A stretch of DNA of 64,000 nucleotides, from IMG/VR virus record IMGVR_UViG_3300010430_000004, positions 1-64,000 of that record. One strand, 5' to 3'. Below, in pieces: positions 30,739 through 54,048 of the stretch. Each line of letters begins with the position of its first letter. Position 1 is the first letter of the stretch. The translations under genes were made by a program, and so were the position numbers. This stretch comes from a virus. The notes under the pieces are model-generated. The model ran no database searches and had not been told where the DNA came from. It was given only the letters and a program-made list of their open reading frames with translations.

Positions 30739-30796
30739 AATATAACATGGATTGTTAAAAAATGCAAATTTATTTACATAAATGACTCAAAATGAG
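30739..30796 (-). promoter_or_regulatory. Early promoter, single-operator type
   Basis: Minus strand: palindrome CTCAAAATGAG (30786-30796), 18 bp, TTGCAT (30767-30762), exactly 17 bp, TATATT (30744-30739). Drives the helicase operon. The palindrome is a likely binding site for a phage regulator. Confidence 0.75.
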
Positions 30797-36112: not shown

Positions 36113-36169
36113 AATATAACATAGATTGTTAAAAAATGCTAGTAAAATTTTAAAACGTCTCAAAATGAG
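36113..36169 (-). promoter_or_regulatory. Early promoter, single-operator type
   Basis: Minus strand: CTCAAAATGAG (36159-36169), 17 bp, TAGCAT (36141-36136), 17 bp, TATATT (36118-36113). Same spacing as the other four of its kind. Confidence 0.75.
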
Positions 36170-38354: not shown

Positions 38355-38412
38355 AATATAACTTATTTTTTTAAAAAATGCAATTAAATTTTTACAAATG
38401 TATCAAAACGAG
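38355..38412 (-). promoter_or_regulatory. Early promoter, single-operator type
   Basis: Minus strand: variant palindrome CTCGTTTTGAT (38412-38402), 18 bp, TTGCAT (38383-38378), 17 bp, TATATT (38360-38355), upstream of the collagen-like lipoprotein. Confidence 0.7.
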
Positions 38413-39105: not shown

Positions 39106-39163
39106 AATATACCACGTTTTTGTAAAAAAAGCTACTATTTTTTTACAAACGTTTCATTTTGAG
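39106..39163 (-). promoter_or_regulatory. Early promoter, single-operator type
   Basis: Minus strand: CTCAAAATGAA (39163-39153), 18 bp, TAGCTT (39134-39129), 17 bp, TATATT (39111-39106). Confidence 0.7.
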
Positions 39164-40316: not shown

Positions 40317-40374
40317 AGTATAACACGTTTTTGTAAAAAAAGCAAACTTTTTTGTAAAACTGTCTCATTTCGAG
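40317..40374 (-). promoter_or_regulatory. Early promoter, single-operator type
   Basis: Minus strand: CTCGAAATGAG (40374-40364), 18 bp, TTGCTT (40345-40340), 17 bp, TATACT (40322-40317), the best sigma-70 match of the set. Confidence 0.78.
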
Positions 40375-40377
40375 ACG

Positions 40378-41409
40378 TTAGGCCGCATTTATCCAGCTTG
40401 GAGAGAAATCAATCAATTTATAAGTGCCATCAAGGTAAACAACATTTCTCTCGTGAACATCTTGATGATAAATACCTGTTGACTCTTCAAGTGTTTCTTT
40501 AAGCTCTTCCATTACGCTTTCTACTTCATATTCACATAAGTCAGCCTCTTCAACGGTAATGCCACAATGCTCCATAAAAATAACAGCCACCCAGCCATGT
40601 GAAGTTTTGATTGCATGAGCACCATAGCCATAAGGTGTAACACCGCTTGATTCAGCTTGTTTGATGATCTCAAACTCTCTCTTAGCGTCATTAAAAGCCT
40701 CAGTATCTCTAAGAGCTGTTGAGCTACTCTTGATGTTGGCTAGGTTGTGGTGACGAGTGCCATTGATAATTAACTTAGCTCCTACACCCATGTAATGGGT
40801 ATAAAGGCTATATGAACCAACACTGCAATCGTTGTCTTCATCAATACCATTTTCAATATAGTCGCCAAGCTTTTTGTCAAGAGCATCAATTAGTTGACGC
40901 TTTACGAAAGTTTTCAGTGCCTTTTTCTTTGGTGGAATTCCAGGCTTAGTAACTCCACTGCAATAAGAGATAGGTGCTCCATTGAACGGTACGTTTGGTA
41001 CATAGATAAAGTAAGAACCATCTTTGCTGACTACTTTATACATAGGTCTATAGTGTCCATAGTTTCCTGTATGATTGATGTCTTTGAGACCACACCAAAC
41101 AAAGTGGCTAAAGTTGGAGATAATAGCCCTGTGATCGTCAGTAAATGGGTTGTCTTTTTGTTTTCTAGGTTTACCGTTTAGTCTGAAAGCGTATTTGTTT
41201 AACCACTCAATGCCAAGCTTTGTTTGCTCAGGAGTGATGTCGATACCTTTCTTAAGCTGGTGCTTTATGAGCGTAATAAGTTCAAATCTATCAGAGTCGT
41301 GATTTCTCTCTTCTTCTCTTTTCATGCGACAAACCTGATCTATTTGAGTCTTTATGAAAAGGTTAGCTTTAAGGGCATCTCTGTATCTCTTGATAGTTTG
41401 CTTAGTCAT
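40378..41409 (-). CDS. Protein-kinase-fold protein
   Basis: 343-344 aa. The C-terminal 30 residues carry a kinase catalytic core: HQDVHERN (Asp318, Asn323; canonical HRDxxxxN) and LIDFS (Asp335; canonical DFG). A hinge-like VIFMEHCG lies about 50 residues upstream. The N-terminal ~200 residues match nothing known to me. The chain ends soon after DFS, so the usual C-lobe is missing. May phosphorylate host proteins, or be a small-molecule or pseudo-kinase. The second ATG fits the AGGAG spacing better. Confidence 0.6.
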   Translation of the reverse strand: MTKQTIKRYRDALKANLFIKTQIDQVCRMKREEERNHDSDRFELITLIKHQLKKGIDITPEQTKLGIEWLNKYAFRLNGKPRKQKDNPFTDDHRAIISNFSHFVWCGLKDINHTGNYGHYRPMYKVVSKDGSYFIYVPNVPFNGAPISYCSGVTKPGIPPKKKALKTFVKRQLIDALDKKLGDYIENGIDEDNDCSVGSYSLYTHYMGVGAKLIINGTRHHNLANIKSSSTALRDTEAFNDAKREFEIIKQAESSGVTPYGYGAHAIKTSHGWVAVIFMEHCGITVEEADLCEYEVESVMEELKETLEESTGIYHQDVHERNVVYLDGTYKLIDFSPSWINAA

Positions 41410-41441
41410 CATTTCTCCTTGCTAGTTTAACTTACAAATTA

Positions 41442-41521
41442 CCTATCGGTGGCTTGTAAAAAAACTTATGCCTCAATTCGAGAAAAATGCAAATTTTTTG
41501 AAAAAACTTTCTCAAAATGAG
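41442..41521 (-). promoter_or_regulatory. Two-operator promoter with sigma-28-like elements
   Basis: Minus strand: outer palindrome CTCATTTTGAG (41521-41511), TTGCAT (41493-41488), inner palindrome CTCGAATTGAG (41482-41472), then ATAAGTTT, 11 bp, ACCGATAG (sigma-28 consensus TAAAGTTT-N11-GCCGATAA). Drives the kinase-like gene. Confidence 0.7.
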
Positions 41522-41530
41522 ACAGGCTAT

Positions 41531-41719
41531 TCAATTAATAAGCTTTTCAAGCAAATCCTTGTTTTTGGCTATAGCACTACACATTACAGTGTTGCAAATG
41601 TTTGTATTTTCTACATTTCTGTCTATACGCTTGTTGGTTCGGTAAAGCCATAACAGGCAACTGATTATAAGTATACCATGTACAGCAACAAAAGCTATAA
41701 ATAAGTCTGTATGGTTCAT
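41531..41719 (-). CDS. Small membrane protein
   Basis: 62 aa with an N-terminal transmembrane helix (LFIAFVAVHGILIISCLLWLY). Overlaps the upstream stop by 4 nt. Confidence 0.6.
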   Translation of the reverse strand: MNHTDLFIAFVAVHGILIISCLLWLYRTNKRIDRNVENTNICNTVMCSAIAKNKDLLEKLIN

Positions 41720-41922
41720 GTGTTCTCCTTTAGAAAATAAATCTCAATGTTACTTAAACAGTCTTGGTCTGCTAAATTCTTAACAGTTTCCAATACTTGC
41801 GTCTGTTCTTCAGTCAGTGTGTTGTTAACCCACAGTTTTCCAACAGCCTCAATAAAACCTTGGTTGCTAGAATTGTCTTCATAGATCTTCAATAAACGTT
41901 TGTTAAATATAGAGTTTTTCAT
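41716..41922 (-). CDS. Small hypothetical protein
   Basis: 68 aa, helical. ATG overlaps the stop of the 58-aa gene (TGATG). Confidence 0.6.
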   Translation of the reverse strand: MKNSIFNKRLLKIYEDNSSNQGFIEAVGKLWVNNTLTEEQTQVLETVKNLADQDCLSNIEIYFLKENT

Positions 41923-42098
41923 CAGTGAGCCTTTACTGGTTCATAAACTTCATAGCTATCATAGCCACTTAGCGCGTTAAAAAAGTCAATTAGATCATCA
42001 CACGTCTCGAAATGATACGTGTTAACTTTTCCATTAGTCACGGTTGCTAGTGTCCAATAGATTGACGCTTCTTTTTCCATCTCTAGTAAGCTCTTCAT
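41922..42098 (-). CDS. Small hypothetical protein (58 aa)
   Basis: ATG at 42098 behind GGAGAGTAT, TGA at 41922-41924 overlapping the next ATG. Mixed sequence with several aromatic residues; no motif. Confidence 0.65.
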   Translation of the reverse strand: MKSLLEMEKEASIYWTLATVTNGKVNTYHFETCDDLIDFFNALSGYDSYEVYEPVKAH

Positions 42099-42106
42099 AT
42101 ACTCTC

Positions 42107-42334
42107 CTATGCTACTTTCTTGTTAGTGTTCAATTTCTCGACAAAAATGTCAGCAACTGCTTGTTCACCATAAGTTGCTATCATATTGCTTAATTGTAGT
42201 CTAATAGCCTCTTTTGGATGAGCCATGAAATACTCAATGTTCAGGGCATGAGGTCTGGTAACAGTGTCATCAAACAGTTCTGCTTCAGCTTTCTTATCTA
42301 ATGCTTTGGTTTTATTCATCTTAATCGGTTTCAT
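42107..42334 (-). CDS. Small basic hypothetical protein
   Basis: 75 aa with a Lys-rich N-terminus. AAGGAG precedes the ATG. Unknown. Confidence 0.6.
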   Translation of the reverse strand: MKPIKMNKTKALDKKAEAELFDDTVTRPHALNIEYFMAHPKEAIRLQLSNMIATYGEQAVADIFVEKLNTNKKVA

Positions 42335-42343
42335 AAATTCTCC

Positions 42344-42661
42344 TTAGAAAATAAGCACATAGCCGTGCTGTGATAAGTTAGTGATATCTGTTAAGTTTTC
42401 CATGTGACTTTCAGCAATCGTTTTGAGTTCACATAAACCCAATCGTCCACAAGAAAGCTGATACTCGTTGTAATTGTCGTCTTCATCGTAAAAGCAGAAA
42501 GCGATAGTGCTCTCGTCTCCATTGTCTTTGTTATAAAGAGTGATACCTACCGAGAATTCTATACCACTCATGTCTGCTCCATCACAGGCCAAGTTGCAAT
42601 CAAGGGCATGGGTATTAAAAGGTTGGCTGCTCCATTCACTGTCCATTGTAGTTGCTGTCAT
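42344..42661 (-). CDS. Small acidic hypothetical protein
   Basis: 105 aa, acidic, beta-rich. Directly downstream of a two-operator promoter with AAAGGAG. Confidence 0.6.
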   Translation of the reverse strand: MTATTMDSEWSSQPFNTHALDCNLACDGADMSGIEFSVGITLYNKDNGDESTIAFCFYDEDDNYNEYQLSCGRLGLCELKTIAESHMENLTDITNLSQHGYVLIF

Positions 42662-42692
42662 TTTTCTCTCCTTTAGTTTTCCTTACAAATTA

Positions 42693-42771
42693 CTCATCGG
42701 TCAACTTTCAAAAAACTTATGCCTCAATTCGAGATTTTTCAAAAAAAGTTAAAAAACTTTCTCGTTTTGAT
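42693..42771 (-). promoter_or_regulatory. Two-operator promoter with sigma-28-like elements
   Basis: Minus strand: outer palindrome variant ATCAAAACGAG (42771-42761), TTGAAA, inner CTCGAATTGAG (42733-42723), then ATAAGTTT, 11 bp, ACCGATGA. Confidence 0.68.
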
Positions 42772-42776
42772 ACGCT

Positions 42777-43304
42777 TTAGCTTGCTTCTTGCTCACTAGC
42801 TATCTGTTGGAGTTCGTCTAAGAGGCTATCCACGTCTAGGATGCTGACCCATCTGTCATAGCTCATGTTTAGGTAAAGCCAACCATCGTCACTGATATAG
42901 CCATCATCGACTTCTCGTTGTACCGTCTTCTTTTCGTCTTCAGTTAAGGCTTTAAAAGCGTCATGCAATTCGTCTTCTGGTTGGATTTCTACTTCACCCA
43001 AAGTCATGCCATAAACCTCATTGCTTTGATAGAAAACACCCTCACTAAAGCGCACAGTGCAATGCTTGTGAATGAGAGTAAGGGCTTCATCGTTTTCAAT
43101 ACCACACTTTTCTAAAAGCTTAGCGATATCATGGCTTTCCTCAGAATCAACGTTTTGTAGCGCCTCAATAACAGTGTCAATAGCCTCACCATAGCCATGG
43201 CTTTCTACAAAGTCAGCTGTACCGTTGTCTGGATTGTTTGTGTAGTACTCTGTACCCCATTCACACTCATTCATGTACTTTTCGATAATTTGCTTAACAG
43301 TCAT
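42777..43304 (-). CDS. Acidic hypothetical protein
   Basis: About 175 aa, acidic throughout, from ATG 43304 with GGAGAGTAT upstream; an upstream ATG would place the ribosome site inside the gene. High acidity recalls phage anti-host or DNA-mimic proteins, but nothing specific is seen. Confidence 0.6.
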   Translation of the reverse strand: MTVKQIIEKYMNECEWGTEYYTNNPDNGTADFVESHGYGEAIDTVIEALQNVDSEESHDIAKLLEKCGIENDEALTLIHKHCTVRFSEGVFYQSNEVYGMTLGEVEIQPEDELHDAFKALTEDEKKTVQREVDDGYISDDGWLYLNMSYDRWVSILDVDSLLDELQQIASEQEAS

Positions 43305-43327
43305 ATACTCTCCTTTGGTCATATTTT

Positions 43328-43405
43328 CTTATCGGTGGGTCTACAAAAAACTTATGTCTCAATATGAGAATTTTGAAAAAAGTTAAAAAACTTTCTCAAA
43401 ATGAG
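43328..43405 (-). promoter_or_regulatory. Two-operator promoter with sigma-28-like elements
   Basis: Minus strand: outer CTCATTTTGAG (43405-43395), TTCAAA, inner CTCATATTGAG (43368-43358), then ATAAGTTT, 11 bp, ACCGATAA (7 of 8 to the sigma-28 -10 element). Confidence 0.72.
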
Positions 43406-43693
43406 TCAGTCAATGTCAAGGTTGCGTTGTTCAATGTCATCATGGTAATCTCCAGCCATCAGCCACAACACCTTGATCTGTAAGTCAGCCTCATCCATGT
43501 CAGTTAGCTCATCCAGCGTCCACGCTCCAGTGTCTCTCAAATACTCTACCATCAACGGTCTCTCGGGAAAGTCCACCTTTTCAGAGTAGTCAACACAGTC
43601 TTGGTAACAATCACCTGCATGGTAACAAGCCTCTAATGCTTCAATGCTGATCTCCATTTCAAAGTAACTAGTCGTCATTATTATAGTTTCCAC
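43406..43693 (-). CDS. Acidic hypothetical protein
   Basis: 95 aa, acidic. The GTG at 43693 has GGAG 6-7 nt upstream and is preferred to the ATG five codons later. Unknown. Confidence 0.6.
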   Translation of the reverse strand: METIIMTTSYFEMEISIEALEACYHAGDCYQDCVDYSEKVDFPERPLMVEYLRDTGAWTLDELTDMDEADLQIKVLWLMAGDYHDDIEQRNLDID

Positions 43694-43745
43694 AAATCTC
43701 TCCTATCTATTTAGTATTGCTCAAGAATCGCACGTTCTCTTGGTC

Positions 43746-43934
43746 TCACAGATGATTCTCAAAATCGCTAGTCACTAGGTTCAACATTTCTATCAAGGTT
43801 TCTGTGTCATAGATCACTCCACGATCAATGGCACGAATAATAGCAGCATTATCAGCTACCACTTTTTCTTCAGTGCTATGGCACACAATCAAATTGGCTA
43901 GTTGTCTGATTGCTTTTCTTAAAACGTTGTTCAT
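43746..43934 (-). CDS. Small hypothetical protein
   Basis: 62 aa, helical, ATG overlaps the upstream stop by 1 nt (TAATG). Unknown. Confidence 0.6.
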   Translation of the reverse strand: MNNVLRKAIRQLANLIVCHSTEEKVVADNAAIIRAIDRGVIYDTETLIEMLNLVTSDFENHL

Positions 43935-44215
43935 TATCCTTCTCCTAGCAGTTCAGCTACAGTGCTCATAAAGTCTACTGGAACTGTGATTTCGATACTG
44001 TCTATTTCACAAAAATCTAACTCAAGAAAGTCACCATTGTCACTCTCAACGTCACTAACCTCTACTACGTGTCCACCTATAGAGGTCATTGGGTATTTCA
44101 TGCCTTTAGACAAAGCAGTGGCATCTGGACAAAGATCTTCACTCCATAGATAGTCGATAACGTTTTCTATTCTATTCATTCCAATCTCTTCTAGTGTCAT
44201 TCTTAGTGTAATCAT
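43934..44215 (-). CDS. Acidic hypothetical protein, first gene of leftward arm
   Basis: 93 aa, acidic (DVESDNGDFLELDFCEID). TAAGGAGCACTG precedes the ATG. It is the first gene left of the divergence region, behind the outermost two-operator promoter, so probably among the earliest expressed. Confidence 0.6.
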   Translation of the reverse strand: MITLRMTLEEIGMNRIENVIDYLWSEDLCPDATALSKGMKYPMTSIGGHVVEVSDVESDNGDFLELDFCEIDSIEITVPVDFMSTVAELLGEG

Positions 44216-44235
44216 CAGTGCTCCTTAGTTAATTT

Positions 44236-44314
44236 CTTATCGGTCAACTACTAAAAAACTTATGACTCATTTTGAGAAAGTTGCAAAAAATATAAAAAAC
44301 TTTCTCGAAATGAG
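44236..44314 (-). promoter_or_regulatory. Two-operator promoter with sigma-28-like elements
   Basis: Minus strand: outer CTCATTTCGAG (44314-44304), TTGCAA, inner CTCAAAATGAG (44276-44266), then ATAAGTTT, 11 bp, ACCGATAA. Start point of the leftward arm. Confidence 0.72.
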
Positions 44315-51530: not shown

Positions 51531-51599
51531 GGAAAAGTAGTTTAATTGGTTAAAACCCCCTCGTTGAGGGGAATGTCGGTTCGAGTCCGGCCTTTTCCG
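51531..51599 (+). tRNA. tRNA-Asn(GTT)-like gene
   Basis: Acceptor GGAAAAG/CTTTTCC, D-arm GTTT/AAAC with a GG-containing loop, anticodon arm CCCC/GGGG with loop TCGTTGA (anticodon GTT), and T-arm GTCGG-TTCGAGT-CCGGC. Odd points: only 69 nt, a 4-bp anticodon stem and C instead of U at position 33. Probably a compact phage tRNA or a tRNA-derived element. Confidence 0.7.
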
Positions 51600-52643: not shown

Positions 52644-52787
52644 ATGAAAACTTTTCTTAATGTTTTAGGTATAATAGGGGCTTTAGTTGCTCTTGTTCTT
52701 TTTATGAGCTGGATGGTAAGCTGTACCTGTGAAAGTGCTGGAACTTCAACTGTAGTTGTCGGTGGGCAAACTCACAGATGTCATTAG
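52644..52787 (+). CDS. Small membrane protein/lipoprotein-like (47 aa)
   Basis: ATG 52644 behind TTTAGGAGATCTT. One transmembrane helix (VLGIIGALVALVLFMSWM) followed by VSCTC, which could be a lipobox. The end overlaps the aminotransferase start. Confidence 0.6.
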   Translation: MKTFLNVLGIIGALVALVLFMSWMVSCTCESAGTSTVVVGGQTHRCH

Positions 52788-53725
52788 AACAAATAAACCT
52801 TGGCTGGGGCAATCCGTATTTTCTTTTACAAATATTGAATGGAAGTATACTTCCAAAATTTATGAATTTTGAAGCCAGCGAATTAAGTTATCCTCCGAAA
52901 GATGGGTTAGAGGAGTTGAGAAACCTAACCAAACAGGTAATCAAAGAAACTACTGGCCTTGATTATGATCATATTATAATTACCAATGGCGCTACATCTG
53001 CTATTAATACTATTCTTAGATACGAAAAACCAAAATATGTATACACCCATGAATATGGTTATCCTCTTTATGATAAAATTATAAAAGGCAATAAAATGGT
53101 TAGAGTAAATGATCTTACTAGACCTAGACAACAAGATTGCATTGATTTAATAGATAGCCCAAGCAACCCTACTGGTAAACAAGTATTGTTTGCTCACGGT
53201 AATAATTCTATATGGGATGCTGTATATCATAGTTCAATATACACTTATAATTTAAACCTTTTCCCAAAAAATCACAAATATTATGTAGGCTCTTATAGTA
53301 AGTTATTGGGTCTAGCAGGATGCAGAGTAGGATTTATTGCTATAAACGACCCTTTCCTTCGAGATGAATTGTATTTTGAAAATTGGAAAGACTTAGCTGG
53401 AGTTTCTGCTCTTAGCCAAAAATTTTTAATAAACGTTTTAAAAGAAATAGACCTTCCAATGTTCTTAAAAAGTGGAGAAAAAAGCCTAAATTACAACAGA
53501 GAAGAATTCCAAAAAATAGAGCATTTATTCGGCAATCAATTAGTCAATGAAATTGGTATGTTTTATTGTGCTAAATGCGATGATAGGCTTTTCAAATTCT
53601 TAGATAAATGCAATATTCAATACGTTAAATTAGATAGTGAGACTATACGATTATCTATGGGTCACGAAAATGAAATAACAAAATCTGCCATTAGCAGAAT
53701 CAACCAAATGGACAAAATAAAATGA
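52778..53725 (+). CDS. PLP-dependent fold-type I aminotransferase
   Basis: 315 aa. SPSNPTG (127-133), DAVY (147-150), Schiff-base Lys175 in SYSKLLGLAGCRVGF and Arg183 mark the class I/II aminotransferase family, closest in style to histidinol-phosphate or threonine-phosphate enzymes. Shorter than the usual 350-400 aa. Substrate unknown. First of four overlapping genes with a membrane protein and a cupin, suggesting a small pathway. Metabolic aminotransferases are rare in phages. Confidence 0.85.
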   Translation: MSLEQINLGWGNPYFLLQILNGSILPKFMNFEASELSYPPKDGLEELRNLTKQVIKETTGLDYDHIIITNGATSAINTILRYEKPKYVYTHEYGYPLYDKIIKGNKMVRVNDLTRPRQQDCIDLIDSPSNPTGKQVLFAHGNNSIWDAVYHSSIYTYNLNLFPKNHKYYVGSYSKLLGLAGCRVGFIAINDPFLRDELYFENWKDLAGVSALSQKFLINVLKEIDLPMFLKSGEKSLNYNREEFQKIEHLFGNQLVNEIGMFYCAKCDDRLFKFLDKCNIQYVKLDSETIRLSMGHENEITKSAISRINQMDKIK

Positions 53726-54048
53726 TAGCTGTTTGTTTTATAGTTGGACTTTTAGTATATAGTGGCTTAGCTTACATTTCCTATGAAGATTCTATCAAAA
53801 ATTCTTGGTATTTTTATTATCTAGGAATAGGTATAGCAATAGTGGCAAACTTTGCATGGTTAACCATTGCCAAAACTGTTCCTGAAAATTCAAAAATATT
53901 GATATATGGATCTATATGGGATGCTATGATTTTGTTTACTTTTATAACTATACCTTTTATATTTTTTGAAATGAAATTAACCACAAAAGACTGGATTGGC
54001 CTTTCTTTGATAATATTAGGTATACTAATTGTGAAGGTTTTAAAATAA
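53722..54048 (+). CDS. Four-helix membrane protein, SMR/DMT-like
   Basis: 108 aa with four hydrophobic helices filling the chain, the size and layout of small multidrug resistance/DMT half-transporters. Overlaps the aminotransferase stop by 4 nt. It could export or import the pathway's compound, or be a flippase half. Confidence 0.6.
   Translation: MIAVCFIVGLLVYSGLAYISYEDSIKNSWYFYYLGIGIAIVANFAWLTIAKTVPENSKILIYGSIWDAMILFTFITIPFIFFEMKLTTKDWIGLSLIILGILIVKVLK

Follow-up and report, generated by a model that had tools for sequence, protein, structure and literature searches.

Sigma-28 (FliA)-type promoters in the leftward arm of a myovirus, where they have paired palindromes, and in its relatives

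The stretch of DNA analysed here (the window) consists of bases 1-64,000 of the 168,536-bp IMG/VR virus record IMGVR_UViG_3300010430_000004 (G+C 36%), and its subject is a set of four leftward promoters, designated F1 to F4. Judged from the sequence, F1 to F4 are real, non-random promoters of the sigma-28 (FliA) type that recur across a phage group. The best explanation, to which a probability of about 0.7 is assigned, is that they are sigma-28 promoters of the host RNA polymerase, acted on by a palindrome-binding modulator, in a genome with three promoter classes. The pattern ATAAGTTT-N11-ACCGAT has exact minus-strand matches at positions 44239-44263, 43331-43355, 42696-42720 and 41445-41469; allowing 2 mismatches adds no further site in the whole 168,536-bp record. 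ACCGAT is followed by AA, AA, GA and AG in F1 to F4, respectively, and the sites match the E. coli consensus TAAAGTTT-N11-GCCGATAA at 13, 13, 12 and 12 of 16 positions, with the spacer exact. A preliminary description of the window had reported four leftward sites with an 11-bp spacer, their -10 elements and an identical distance from palindrome to promoter; exact pattern matching recovered all four, and the inner palindrome stops 2 bp before the -35 box in 4 of 4. Each unit thus reads CTC-N5-GAG palindrome, 2 bp, ATAAGTTT, 11 bp and -10 element, followed on the same strand, ~20 to 30 nt beyond the promoter, by a ribosome-binding site (Shine-Dalgarno sequence) and a start codon.

The whole unit belongs to one 77-nt repeat family with copies 68-81% identical, and F1 to F4 therefore share descent. 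Across this family CATAAGTTTTTT and ACCGAT are the same in every copy, whereas each of the remaining 8 spacer columns (of 11) varies, a pattern indicative of selection for two boxes held at a fixed distance. A scoring matrix built from the sites of four relatives, with this genome excluded, placed F1 to F4 at ranks 1-4 of the genome (23.0-25.3 bits; next site 18.6, best sites of shuffles 11.9-15.7), with the caveat that the relatives' sites were first located by a pattern derived from the F1-F4 finding. Unbiased counts of upstream 8-mers also recover the boxes, as GCCGATAA/CGATAAGT in relative G043 and CTAAAGTT/TAAAGTTT in relative G033.

The phage encodes a tail sheath protein and is therefore a myovirus. 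The major capsid protein shows 52% identity, over 100% of its length, to that of Myxococcus phage Mx1 (OR576727), the nearest named relative by capsid, and more distant kinship to SPO1-like phages. Relatives, some represented by partial records, were collected from IMG/VR by searches with the capsid protein (54 loci) and with the sigma-like protein described below (80 further loci). Same-strand clusters of FliA-type promoters were found in six of these related uncultured phages (G043, G027, G033, G015, G053 and G068), the best sites matching TAAAGTTT-N11-GCCGATAA at 14-16 of 16 positions; G015 has a perfect 16/16 site at 42670, and G068 has four copies of TAAAGTTT-N11-(A/T)CCGATAA inside 4.5 kb. 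The spacer length of the relatives' matches peaks sharply at 11. Not one permuted consensus out of 100 equalled the observed match count in G043, G033 or G015, and the exact short pattern gave 13 matches over 27 records versus 2 for the reversed control. Many of these sites lie 18-48 nt ahead of start codons of genes that have no homologues in the other phages. Among three FliA-poor relatives to which this matrix was applied, G002 and Mx1 gave no site above shuffles and G006 gave one (21.9 bits). The strict promoter pattern had no matches in IMG/VR, a phage collection gave none to a 24-kb megablast query or to two window proteins by tblastn, and a search of open-licence papers found no phage described as using FliA promoters.

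An improbable alternative is that F1 to F4 are middle or late promoters for a sigma factor of the phage itself. The phage does encode a sigma-70-family protein of 350 amino acids (aa; record positions 96788-97840, plus strand, outside the window; locus L010:13788-14840), homologous (32%) to the Mx1 'putative RNA polymerase sigma factor', with a PHROG sigma match at 2.4e-6 and distant profile matches to the FliA structures 1rp3 and 6pmi. It aligns, however, to regions 2-3 of the SigA, RpoD and FliA structures, and in 8 of the 8 phages aligned it stops where region 4 has barely begun, so that the portion responsible for reading a -35 box is missing. Searches for a FliA homologue or a region 4 encoded by the phage gave nothing above the cut-off. 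A split sigma factor with region 4 in the following gene was considered and rejected, as that gene does not supply the region; by eye it has the look of a GroES-type co-chaperonin in most of the phages. Nor does promoter presence follow the sigma lineage. Closely related phages differ in whether they have FliA-type clusters, and the sigma tree requires seven trait changes for seven carriers, at least five of them forced by well-supported branches. G027 carries clusters, whereas G044 (a partial record of 87 kb), whose sigma is 88% identical, has none, and G002, with a sigma 72% identical to that of G027, has no site above shuffles.

The structural genes, moreover, are preceded not by F-type boxes but by AATCTTWA. 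This motif is among the most enriched upstream 8-mers of seven phages (G000, G043, G027, G033, G015, G002 and G006), some of which have FliA clusters and some not. In the genome described here it precedes structural and other rightward genes (8194, 10064, 15656, 16675, 17447, 21249, 55210 and 63644) by 12-41 nt; no copy stands in promoter position on the coding strand of the leftward small-gene arm. AATCTTWA is probably the late promoter of the phage sigma, a pairing that we infer. With a phage sigma lacking region 4, AATCTTWA at the structural genes and clusters that do not track the phage sigma, a cellular sigma-28 would be the best reader of F1 to F4, and recognition by host FliA is likely. 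The sigma-28 assignment made in the preliminary description is well supported by the near-perfect clusters of the relatives, the preference for an 11-bp spacer and the unlikelihood of the phage sigma as reader.

A second promoter class of the genome bears on a further alternative, slightly less probable again, that F1 to F4 are sigma-70 promoters with a poor core, activated by a protein at the abutting palindrome, and that their FliA likeness is accidental. Sigma-70-type promoters of the form T(T/A)GC(A/T)T-N17-TATATT/TATACT, mostly with extended -10 elements, stand ahead of many genes in the leftward arm and in the rightward region at 110-155 kb, those of the latter mostly without a palindrome (an exception lies near 143.3 kb). 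Those at 30-40 kb are accompanied by the same palindrome, centred near -59. Class II activators sit near -41. The palindrome at the FliA-type promoters is centred near -41, with a second 37-39 bp upstream of it near -79, all distances being hand-counted from an assumed start 7 nt past the -10 box. The location would thus suit activation of a sigma-70 core, but inspection of the sequence upstream of the F1-F4 genes found no TATAAT-like -10 with a -35 at 16-18 nt, and the -10 octamer and exact 11-bp spacer are common to G015 and G068, which have no palindrome there. F1 to F4 are clearly distinct from the neighbouring TTGCTT/TAGCAT-N17-TATACT/TATATT class. That they are binding sites of a phage repressor, or of some other DNA-binding protein, and no promoters at all is very improbable: they do sit in repeats with paired palindromes, but they are directional, two-box, intergenic and always placed before a same-strand Shine-Dalgarno sequence and start codon, and their boxes recur in relatives without palindromes.

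The palindromes themselves are over-represented, CTC(A/G)WWW(T/C)GAG occurring 12 times in the record versus 1.1 in shuffles, with 10 copies intergenic at 30-44 kb. The CTC-N5-GAG form is a relaxed version of a 15-bp palindrome, GTCTCA-N3-TGAGAC, which is densely repeated in the early regions of relatives. When up to two of its 12 fixed positions may differ, there are ~50 copies in G027 (locus L107), all at 135-146 kb, 37 in the first 5 kb of G044 (L231) and ~60 in 48-60 kb of G047 (L238), with a smaller cluster beside FliA promoters at 97-104 kb of G053 (L229). The arrays have about one copy per 150-250 bp, inside and between the genes of one region, and copies are nearly absent elsewhere; at up to 1 mismatch the array-bearing records hold 3-19 copies versus 0-2 for the reversed control. 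They resemble dispersed operators or partition sites. Promoters and palindrome are separable, as G015, G033, G043 and G068 have FliA promoters without palindrome clusters and G044 and G047 have the reverse; in G043 a different palindrome (TTGCAA..TTGCA) abuts three of the FliA promoters. Phyletic profiling among the relatives gave no convincing candidate for an operator-binding protein whose presence follows the operator distribution, and no regulator was recognised among the arm proteins scanned. The preliminary description had the promoters capped by repressor-bound operators. The palindromes are real, but because they also lie near -59 of sigma-70-type promoters, activation fits as well as repression; the -35 box could be touched by a repressor, but an activator is at least as consistent with the -59 position and with -35 boxes that depart from the consensus.

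Several points weigh against the host sigma-28 reading. The fit of F1 to F4 to the E. coli consensus (12-13 of 16, and the consensus is that of E. coli) is weaker than that of the relatives' sites; being homologous, the four copies are not independent observations; where a relative's record is partial, absence of promoters may be missing sequence; and relative G015 has a match to sigma region 4 (E=1e-4, 19.8 bits), below the cut-off.

If the sigma-28 explanation holds, host sigma-28 holoenzyme would read F1 to F4 and thereby drive four leftward operons located at the origin-proximal end of the arm, which encode small phage-specific proteins and a kinase-like protein. A protein recognising GTCTCA-N3-TGAGAC (here mostly CTC-N5-GAG) would bind near -41 and -79 and modulate these promoters, and the same protein would act near -59 on the sigma-70-type extended -10 promoters further along. 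The leftward arm would be served by two host holoenzymes, sigma-28 and sigma-70, and the structural genes behind AATCTTWA by the region-4-less sigma of the phage. The earlier proposal that F1 to F4 head an early arm holds as to position, in that, of the promoters of the leftward small-gene arm, these are the origin-proximal ones and the arm has no AATCTTWA in promoter position; the early timing is inferred, and plausible. Because the promoters resemble those read by FliA, phages of this kind may express some of their early genes only in a motile host, and F1 to F4 may depend on the motile state of theirs. A broader proposal, to which we give somewhat less than even odds, is that in one family of large myoviruses part of the early programme depends on the motility sigma factor of the host (in predators, the attack-phase sigma), FliA promoters having been repeatedly gained before unrelated takeover genes and coupled to the GTCTCA-N3-TGAGAC system that marks the same region.

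Bacterial FliA class 3 flagellar promoters (E. coli TAAAGTTT-N11-GCCGATAA) have the same two boxes, box sequences, 11-bp spacer and position before genes, and so, in boxes and position, does the attack-phase consensus TTAAG-N16-CCGATA of Bdellovibrio (PMC3627812). Unlike the bacterial promoters, those described here lie in phage genomes before phage genes, and in the window the -35 begins ATAAG, the -10 begins ACCGAT and each promoter has two palindromes. Phage T4 (gp55) and SPO1-type phages have late sigma factors with -10-only late promoters, the T4 motif being TATAAATA. The sigma without region 4 and the short AT-rich AATCTTWA before structural genes would be a similar pairing; F1 to F4, by contrast, have a strong -35 box, and AATCTTWA differs from TATAAATA. 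The stoperators of mycobacteriophage L5 are asymmetric dispersed operator sites. G027, G044 and G047 likewise hold dozens of one short operator-like site in and between the genes of one region, but that site is a symmetric 15-bp palindrome, its window copies lie at promoters only, no repressor was identified and there is no evidence of lysogeny. Mx1 shares the capsid group (52%) and the sigma-like protein (32%) but has neither FliA-type promoters nor AATCTTWA enrichment.

The preliminary description had also suggested that a predator host would fit. The link between FliA and the attack phase of Bdellovibrio is correct: 92 of 140 mapped attack-phase promoters bear the FliA motif TTAAG...CCGATA (PMC3627812), boxes that match those of the phage promoters, and fliA could not be deleted (PMC5430801). 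A Bdellovibrio host for this phage is nonetheless unsupported, the nearest named phage, Mx1, infecting Myxococcus. In relative G043, TTAAGTTT...GCCGATAA resembles the Bdellovibrio FliA form, and a Bdellovibrio-like host is possible for that phage. A related capsid gene (65%) turned up in just one cellular assembly, on a contig of a Planctomycetaceae metagenome-assembled genome; that assembly has a FliA above the cut-off, but binning errors are common and the placement of this contig is doubtful. As a rule, phages begin with the housekeeping sigma factor. With FliA clusters in at least seven members of the group and changing hands repeatedly, host lifestyle (swimming or attack phase) would, if the proposal is true, decide whether part of the phage programme runs. 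The three classes would amount to a testable promoter code (sigma-28, sigma-70 and phage sigma) for a large uncultured phage group and to a clue for host assignment, in that hosts of FliA-bearing members should be flagellated.

The genes behind FliA-type promoters are small, have few family matches and show no homology between the phages compared, as would be expected of fast-changing takeover genes. Coordinates in the window are given in Table 1. The kinase-like protein behind F4, which found no relatives in IMG/VR, is possibly an early host-modifying kinase. In G033, one gene behind a FliA-type promoter encodes an AAA ATPase, and a CheY-like receiver (Response_reg 7e-18) is encoded at 154392-154754 (locus L116) immediately behind another such promoter, which is suggestive of interference with chemotaxis.

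Table 1. Promoters, putative operators and downstream genes in the window
Feature	Position	Strand	Comment
Sigma-28-type promoter F1	44237-44263	-	ATAAGTTT-N11-ACCGATAA; exact pattern match, matrix 25.0 bits
Sigma-28-type promoter F2	43329-43355	-	ATAAGTTT-N11-ACCGATAA; exact pattern match, matrix 25.0 bits
Sigma-28-type promoter F3	42694-42720	-	ATAAGTTT-N11-ACCGATGA; exact pattern match, matrix 23.0 bits
Sigma-28-type promoter F4	41443-41469	-	ATAAGTTT-N11-ACCGATAG; exact pattern match, matrix 25.3 bits
Inner putative operator of F1	44266-44276		CTC-N5-GAG; centre near -41 of inferred start
Outer putative operator of F1	44304-44314		Centre near -79
Inner putative operator of F2	43358-43368		
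Outer putative operator of F2	43395-43405		
Inner putative operator of F3	42723-42733		
Outer putative operator of F3	42761-42771		Imperfect (CTCGTTTTGAT); repeat-family member
Inner putative operator of F4	41472-41482		
Outer putative operator of F4	41511-41521		
Genes downstream of F1	43406-44215	-	Small proteins of 93, 62 and 95 aa; 95-aa protein matches phrog_14450 (unknown function)
Gene downstream of F2	42777-43304	-	175 aa (181 aa from upstream ATG at 43322)
Genes downstream of F3	41531-42661	-	105, 75, 58, 68 and 62 aa
Gene downstream of F4	40378-41412	-	344 aa, kinase-like C-terminus; HQDVHERN...IDFSPSW by eye; weak kinase-PHROG match
Sigma-70-type extended -10 promoter	40317-40345	-	TTGCTT-N17-TATACT; same palindrome at 40364-40374, centre near -59
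Sigma-70-type promoter	39106-39134	-	TAGCTT-N17-TATATT; imperfect palindrome upstream
Sigma-70-type promoter	38355-38383	-	TTGCAT-N17-TATATT; imperfect palindrome upstream
Sigma-70-type promoter	36113-36141	-	TAGCAT-N17-TATATT; palindrome at 36159-36169
Sigma-70-type promoter	30739-30767	-	TTGCAT-N17-TATATT; palindrome at 30786-30796; helicase gene downstream
AATCTTTA(A/T) motif	5228, 8153, 10035, 11752, 15635, 16651, 17419, 21237, 27904, 55187, 63621		12-41 nt ahead of start codons, mostly those of structural-region genes; probable late promoter of the phage sigma

To the right of the divergent point, the segment 44220-49200 holds few convincing genes and has recurrent inverted segments of the GGACTCC/GTGGAGTC type; the only Rfam match was the tRNA at 51531. 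Further right, 52778-54048 (plus strand) encodes a class I/II aminotransferase and, after it, a small membrane protein that reads like half of an EamA-type transporter, a possible auxiliary metabolic pair.

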